Below, one piece after another: positions 41,340 through 43,964 of a stretch of DNA of 64,000 bases. Origin of the DNA: Methanococcus maripaludis. GTDB lineage: Archaea; AGJL01; Methanococci; Methanococcales; Methanococcaceae. The notes beneath the pieces were generated by a model. It was not told the DNA's origin and ran no database searches. It was given only the letters and a program-made list of their open reading frames with translations. The position numbers were made by a program, and so were the translations under genes. The stretch's first letter is position 1. Each line of letters opens with the position of its first letter. The stretch is taken from the NCBI RefSeq assembly GCF_013760955.1, contig NZ_JACDUL010000002.1:380719-444718 (forward strand), read 5' to 3'.

Positions 41340-41419
41340 TTTACCGCCAGAATGAAGAATAAAATAAAATTTAATTGTTAAAAGAAGAGATATAAAAATT
41401 TAGTTTTTCAGAATAAAAA

Positions 41420-41485
41420 AATTGGTGTCAGCTCGCCCATCTTTCATCATAAATCAGAAGCTACTCCGTTCATCATCCACCAATT
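41420..41485 (-). ncRNA. Archaeal box C/D guide sRNA
   Basis: On the minus strand, a 66-base RNA with all box C/D elements in the right order and spacing. An 8-bp terminal stem (AATTGGTG/CACCAATT, 41478-41485 with 41420-41427) encloses C box GATGATGA (41470-41477), a 12-base guide (41458-41469) and D' CTGA (41454-41457). A three-base spacer, C' ATGATGA (41444-41450), a second 12-base guide (41432-41443) and D CTGA (41428-41431) follow. The D' guide complements AAGCUACUCCG, which I recall in the peptidyl-transferase region of archaeal 23S rRNA. The D guide complements CUCGCCCAUCUU, whose target I cannot place confidently. A T-run follows at the 3' side. Confidence 0.9.
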
Positions 41486-41544
41486 GCATAAAAATGACAT
41501 TGTGTCCTTATGCGTCAATTGCATCATTAGTATCTCGGATTCAG

Positions 41545-41552
41545 TATATAAA
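41545..41552 (-). promoter_or_regulatory. TATA box upstream of the box C/D sRNA
   Basis: Reads TTTATATA on the minus strand. With a ~25-base offset it would initiate near 41520, giving a leader of about 35 bases before the sRNA stem at 41485. That leader contains a possible hairpin (GCATAA at 41486-41491 with TTATGC at 41508-41513, and GACA with TGTC inside). Confidence 0.5.
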
Positions 41553-41672: not shown

Positions 41673-42620
41673 ATGAATGAACTCGATATCATTAAAATTA
41701 TTTCAAAGAATCTTTCCTATTCAGACGGCGTTGAAAAGGGAATCGGGGATGACTGTGCGGTTTTCAAATTTGAAAATCAGCATTTAGTTGTAACTACCGA
41801 CATGATGTTTAAATCAACCCATTTTCCAGACATTTTAACACCATTTCAGATTGGGATGAGGCTGGTTACTGCAAATGTATCAGATATTGCTGCAATGTGT
41901 GCAAAACCGCTTGGAATGGTTATTTCAATGGGTTTTGATAGTCCGGACAAAAAATTTATCGATGAATTATCCAAAGGAATAGATTATATTTCAAAAGAAT
42001 ACGAATGTCCAATTGCAGGAGGTGACACGAACAAAGCGCCTGAATTAACGCTATCCGGAACTGCATTTGGAATTACCGATAATCCAATATACCGTGGCGG
42101 AATTATTGGTGAAGACATCTGCATTACTGGAGATGTTGGAAAAGTCGCTTGCGCTTTAAAAATTCTTGAAATGAAAGATAATGGAATTTTAGGAAACTTT
42201 GAATTTAAAAAAACAATATCTGAATTTCCAAAAATCATTGAAAAACTTGCAGAACCAAGAGCAAGGGTTAAAGAAGGACTTTTATTAAATAAAATAATCA
42301 CATCGTGCTGTGATATTTCAGATGGCCTTTCAAAAGATTTAAATTATACTGGAAACTTTGAAATAAATTCTAAAAAGCTATTAAATTCTGTTTCAACAGA
42401 TGTTGTTGAATTCTGTGAAAAATTTGATATGGATTTATTAAATACCGTTTTAAACAGCGGTGAAGAATTTGAATTGCTATTTACAACTGCCGATTTTAAA
42501 AGAGCTGGAGAAAAATTACAAGATGTAAATTCAGTAACAAAAATTGGAAAAGTCGAGGAATCTGGAAAAACGGTTGATGGAAATTCAATTAAATCCGAAG
42601 GTTACGTTCACAAATGGTAA
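41673..42620 (+). CDS. thiL: Thiamine-monophosphate kinase
   Basis: Phosphorylates thiamine monophosphate to the pyrophosphate coenzyme. The 315-residue AIR-synthase-family protein has GIGDDCAVFKF, VVTTDMMFKSTHF, NVSDIAAMCAKPLGM, CPIAGGDTNKAP and CCDISDGLSKDL, the expected ATP/Mg and substrate motifs. Two other thiamin genes in the window, thiM and thiE (53836-55249), are at another locus. Its stop overlaps the frame of the archaeosortase gene, which probably follows in the same transcript. Confidence 0.95.
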   Translation: MNELDIIKIISKNLSYSDGVEKGIGDDCAVFKFENQHLVVTTDMMFKSTHFPDILTPFQIGMRLVTANVSDIAAMCAKPLGMVISMGFDSPDKKFIDELSKGIDYISKEYECPIAGGDTNKAPELTLSGTAFGITDNPIYRGGIIGEDICITGDVGKVACALKILEMKDNGILGNFEFKKTISEFPKIIEKLAEPRARVKEGLLLNKIITSCCDISDGLSKDLNYTGNFEINSKKLLNSVSTDVVEFCEKFDMDLLNTVLNSGEEFELLFTTADFKRAGEKLQDVNSVTKIGKVEESGKTVDGNSIKSEGYVHKW

Positions 42621-42631
42621 AATGGAAAACT

Positions 42632-43964
<1,333 letters not shown>

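Follow-up and report, generated by a model that had tools for sequence, protein, structure and literature searches.

A box C/D double-guide sRNA conserved across the Methanococcales with predicted 23S rRNA targets C2558 and U2438

Results

Architecture of the sRNA locus

The DNA analysed here (the window) is a stretch of 64,000 nucleotides of Methanococcus maripaludis. Genes for a B12-type radical SAM protein, ThiL, the archaeosortase ArtE and a NOL1/NOP2/sun methylase lie near a short RNA element, and none of these neighbours need be connected with it, since synteny breaks elsewhere. The element is a complete box C/D sRNA located on the minus strand at 41420-41485, and reads 5'-AAUUGGUG-G-AUGAUGA-ACGGAGUAGCUU-CUGA-UUU-AUGAUGA-AAGAUGGGCGAG-CUGA-CACCAAUU-3'. 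Its component parts and flanking signals are as follows:

41420..41485, minus strand: whole box C/D sRNA; Rfam sR2 (RF01139), 56.5 bits over 41426-41480
41478..41485, minus strand: closing stem, 5' strand AAUUGGUG; 8 bp in the window genome, inner GGUG conserved and pairing with CACC
41470..41476, minus strand: C box AUGAUGA; invariant in 31 aligned genomes
41458..41469, minus strand: D' guide ACGGAGUAGCUU (12 nt); predicted target 23S U2438 (own position 2502)
41454..41457, minus strand: D' box CUGA; invariant in the alignment
41451..41453, minus strand: D'-C' spacer UUU; 3 nt in most relatives, letters vary
41444..41450, minus strand: C' box AUGAUGA; nearly invariant
41432..41443, minus strand: D guide AAGAUGGGCGAG (12 nt); predicted target 23S C2558 (own position 2622)
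41428..41431, minus strand: D box CUGA; invariant in the alignment
41420..41427, minus strand: closing stem, 3' strand CACCAAUU; 8 bp in the window genome, the four inner pairs formed across the order
41415..41421, minus strand: T-run directly past the stem, likely archaeal terminator
41545..41552, minus strand: TATA-like TTTATATA, possible sRNA promoter; consensus match only, 77 nt upstream of the C box

The boxes, the two 12-base guides, the three-base spacer and the 8-bp stem all lie on the strand and at the positions given to them in an earlier note made from the sequence alone. Together with a three-base bulge, the stem and boxes C and D have the layout of a kink-turn, and the hallmarks of archaeal box C/D sRNAs are present throughout: RUGAUGA and CUGA boxes with a stem capable of closing a kink-turn, as well as internal C' and D' boxes with a short spacer. 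The window contains the C-guide-D'-spacer-C' pattern a single time, compared to 0.01 occurrences expected from shuffles, hence the motif is not a product of chance. MFE folding of the leader plus sRNA is no better than that of shuffles (z = -0.68), as expected for a fold that is stabilised by protein. The assignment as a box C/D double-guide sRNA is strongly supported.

Conservation across the Methanococcales

We surveyed 36 genomes of the order Methanococcales, the same 36 that represent the window's GTDB phylum. Using the Rfam model, we located the sRNA in 34 of these and in all 27 near-complete genomes; the two genomes lacking it are incomplete assemblies (54% and 81%). A scan of the named genome contigs returned three Methanothermococcus loci only. 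The alignment of relatives is nearly gap-free. In the window's genus and several relatives the sRNA adjoins thiL, in some also the radical SAM gene, while in the other family and other genera thiL and radical SAM proteins were not found within about 1.5 kb of it. As the neighbouring genes differ in most other genomes, the sRNA is kept independently of them. All of the 34 relatives have a T-run of at least 4 no more than 20 nt from the conserved stem, and in most a TATA-like match lies approximately 35 to 41 bases upstream of the C box.

The window genome and its close relatives G015 and G016 have the TATA-like box at -77 rather than at about -38, and share a possible 40-nt leader (window 41486-41552, minus strand) with a GCAUAA/UUAUGC hairpin just before the closing stem. 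At locus L035, from a Methanothermococcus okinawensis MAG, thiL is present and the sRNA does not adjoin it, unlike at the other Methanothermococcus loci. The archaeosortase ArtE gene (window 42614-43129) follows directly after thiL; ArtE is 34-54% identical even among close relatives, compared to 55-90% for thiL.

Every one of the 28 distinct rows of the alignment forms the four inner pairs of the closing stem, with compensatory changes on both sides. One of these is U-A in 16 and C-G in 12 of the rows, another G-C in 27 and U-A in a single one. The observed covariation was reached by 0 of 500 shuffles, bearing in mind that relatedness inflates such counts, and slid pairings of the stem score below the true register. 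Across the order the outer pairs vary and frequently fail to form; the 8-bp stem of the window genome therefore exceeds what the family keeps.

The sRNA matches Rfam sR2 with an E-value of 1.3e-9 over the window, its 56.5 bits comparing to a gathering score of 42, and this is the only RNA-family match in the window from Rfam. A match above the sR2 family cut-off is lacking in 21 of the 36 Methanococcales genomes. Covariance model R1 scores the window sRNA at 90.3 bits, the alignment behind the model including the window sequence itself. The Rfam match, the order-wide conservation and the stem covariation bear out the box C/D guide assignment of the earlier note.

The D guide is predicted to target 23S C2558

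The 23S and 16S sequences were taken from the window organism's own assembly, with E. coli numbering obtained by alignment with the K-12 rrlB 23S. The D guide pairs with own 23S positions 2618-2627 (UUCGCCCAUU) in helix 92, the A-loop stem, which by the scores used is its best site in the 23S and 16S. The duplex in the window organism consists of 10 contiguous pairs (8 Watson-Crick and 2 G.U), and places C2622, equivalent to E. coli C2558, at the fifth base. The target string predicted in the earlier note, CUCGCCCAUCUU, is absent from the organism's own 23S and 16S; the 'C5' proposed there as the modified base does correspond to C2558 at the best site.

For the window organism alone, shuffled D guides equal the site in 339 of 3000 cases (11%; 10 nt). 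Because this complementarity on its own is weak, the support for C2558 derives from the comparison across genomes. In the sister family (f2), the D guide form TTGATGGGCGAA pairs 12/12 with the C2558 site in the 23S of the window organism, a result that 3 of 3000 shuffles equal; in the 23S loci of that family the site region does not differ. Guide position -1 is only ever A or G, both of which can pair with the facing U2554, and never C or U. The guide is conserved at -3 to -10, the positions predicted to pair, with the flanking positions varying. On these comparative grounds C2558 is a well-supported predicted target of the D guide.

The D' guide is predicted to target 23S U2438

The D' guide pairs with own 23S positions 2498-2508 (AAGCUACCCCG), directly before GGGGAUAAC, forming 10 Watson-Crick pairs of 11 with an A.C mismatch at guide position -8. 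This is the best site in the 23S and 16S by the scores used, and the sole site within one mismatch in the stable RNAs of the genome. The fifth base is U2502, equivalent to E. coli U2438, and is indeed the U of AAGCU that the earlier note had singled out for methylation. That note had also given the sequence before GGGGAUAAC as AAGCUACUCCG; the location holds as the best site, while the organism's own AAGCUACCCCG shows the string of the note to be one base off. E. coli has a U at 2441, as in AAGCUACUCCG, and all readable Methanococcales 23S sequences have a C, which accounts for the A.C mismatch in the duplex. With predicted sites at C2558 and U2438, the description 'peptidyl-transferase region' is apt for both guides.

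Shuffled D' guides equal the site in 137 of 3000 cases (5%; 11 nt) for the window organism alone, so that the complementarity by itself exceeds chance only modestly, and for the D' guide forms of f2 U2438 is not the best site by a run-based score. Conservation of the guide extends from -2 to -11, coinciding with the predicted duplex, whereas the flanking guide positions and the spacer vary. A sub-clade has a D' guide that is 1 nt longer (CGGUGGUAGCUU), in which the centre alone is altered and both flanks are kept; with one U bulged out, the longer guide could form a pair at the C that is otherwise mismatched. Since the target sites for both guides are invariant across the genomes compared, guide-target covariation cannot be seen. 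U2438 is a moderately supported predicted target.

The earlier note had called for complementarity of the guides to rRNA or tRNA. It was found in the 23S (10 contiguous pairs for the D guide, 10 of 11 for the D' guide), and the 30 of 35 tRNA loci scanned gave no run of at least 9 contiguous pairs beyond weak G.U-rich ones. At C4:232156 the D' guide has an exact complement in the genome; this was rejected as a target, as it is not a tRNA and seems to be antisense to the end of a gene.

Both guides are retained on separate sRNAs in three genomes

Three genomes of the window's genus (G018, G019 and G020) contain two C/D units, the distance between their C boxes being about 140-150 nt:

G018:C2:319097-319308 and counterparts (split loci L096, L097 and L098): two tandem C/D sRNAs

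In the first unit ACGGAGUAGCUU is preserved letter for letter, and the D guide, UUUUGAUCCUA, is unrelated. In the second it is AAGAUGGGCGAG that is preserved letter for letter; here the D' guide is unrelated and the D'-C' spacer long, and a separate closing stem shows an A-U that has replaced a G-C. The simplest reading is that the unit was duplicated in tandem and each copy then lost one guide. Each copy keeps one ancestral guide, thus both guides are under separate selection. With one gene in most genomes and two in tandem in three, the family provides a small natural experiment in double-guide sRNA evolution.

Alternative readings

The sRNA lies in intergenic A+T-rich DNA, and a 63-aa ORF overlaps it on the opposite (plus) strand, so that a chance motif, or part of that ORF or of a UTR, has to be considered. 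Such a reading is contradicted by the number of motifs of this kind expected in the window (0.01), by order-wide conservation that persists through changes of neighbourhood, and by length changes in the sRNA that break the ORF frame; its likelihood is negligible. No NCBIfam family matches the ORF, and its similarity to distant relatives is confined to about 20 codons, at the sRNA itself, in line with the earlier view that it is non-coding. The D guide could instead act on the 16S at own position 1261 (CUCGCCCA), where 8 Watson-Crick pairs adjoin the D box in the window organism. In f2, however, the 16S site changes to CUCGCCCU and the guide does not, both end pairs being lost with the guide -1 A facing C, whereas the f2 pairing to the 23S improves to as much as 12/12. 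The 16S target was consequently rejected, and we regard it as highly improbable.

It could also be argued that only the D guide directs methylation (of C2558), the D' side serving as an rRNA-folding clamp or having another target. This would fit with the central mismatch of the D' duplex being kept across the order, with D' complementarity near chance level, and with D' position -1 being unpaired in f2 genomes. The D' guide core is nevertheless conserved as strongly as the D guide, the split genomes keep the D' guide by itself, and 23S 2498-2508 is its only stable-RNA site within one mismatch, making restriction of methylation to the D side unlikely. A more speculative reading is that the central mismatch or bulge of the D' duplex is selected, for example for eased release or as a folding clamp beside the overlapping site of the predicted G2446-guide sRNA described below, and that in one Methanococcus lineage tandem duplication of the double guide divided its two jobs between the copies; this we judge unlikely.

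Discussion

Relation to known box C/D sRNAs

The likeness to Rfam sR2 is one of score and alignment: the boxes align, as do GGAG of the D' guide and GAUGG of the D guide. In contrast, the sR2 consensus guides AAaGGAGaAguAU and GUgGAUGGCgGcu differ at several guide positions, and their best sites on the 23S of the window organism are not U2438 or C2558. The boxes, 12-nt guides, short D'-C' spacer and closing stem are shared with archaeal box C/D sRNAs generally, as is the apparent aiming of two guides at nearby positions of one rRNA; the two sites of a Pyrobaculum dual guide mostly lie no more than 100 nt apart (PMC7994747). There is no difference in kind from this class, the window sRNA having a conserved central mismatch in one guide-target duplex. 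We regard it as a well-supported, ordinary representative of a familiar class whose evolution shows a modest twist.

Seven C/D sRNAs have been reported by RNA-seq in M. maripaludis C5 (PMC4644070). The window sRNA shares their order and sRNA class, and is probably one of the seven. That paper describes the A-loop as lacking a guided site in this species; C2558 sits in the helix 92 stem, not in the loop itself. Among the papers available to the literature search none names Cm2558 or Um2438, and neither the target pair C2558/U2438 nor the guide split was found there.

Proposed mechanism

In archaeal C/D RNPs, L7Ae, Nop5 and fibrillarin assemble on the kink-turn (C/D) and the k-loop (C'/D'). The closing stem and C/D boxes of the window sRNA would form such a kink-turn and its C'/D' boxes a k-loop, on which these three proteins would assemble. 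The D guide, bound to UUCGCCCAUU in helix 92, would direct 2'-O-methylation of 23S C2558, while the D' guide, bound to AAGCUACCCCG beside the peptidyl-transferase ring, would direct methylation of U2438. We consider it probable that the sRNA gene is autonomous and belongs to an order-wide box C/D family, and that its D guide directs methylation of C2558 and its D' guide that of U2438. We infer transcription of the sRNA, RNP assembly and methylation of its targets. In the genome, fibrillarin and Nop-domain genes adjoin each other, and two L7Ae-family genes are present (at the Pfam family level, members not being told apart). The model predicts, specifically and for the whole order, two rRNA methylations (C2558 and U2438) around the peptidyl-transferase centre in tractable methanogens.

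Further candidate C/D sRNAs

A likely C/D sRNA at G000:C2:282595 (L143), without Rfam match above gathering, has a first guide, TGTTATCCCCGG, that pairs 12/12 with 23S CCGGGGAUAACA. The predicted fifth base is G2446, and the site overlaps that of the window D' guide by 3 nt. Two other likely C/D sRNAs, G000:C4:151843 (L151) and G000:C2:246728 (L142), again without Rfam match above gathering, have 11-pair matches to neighbouring 23S sites, at own positions 1995 and 1984 respectively.
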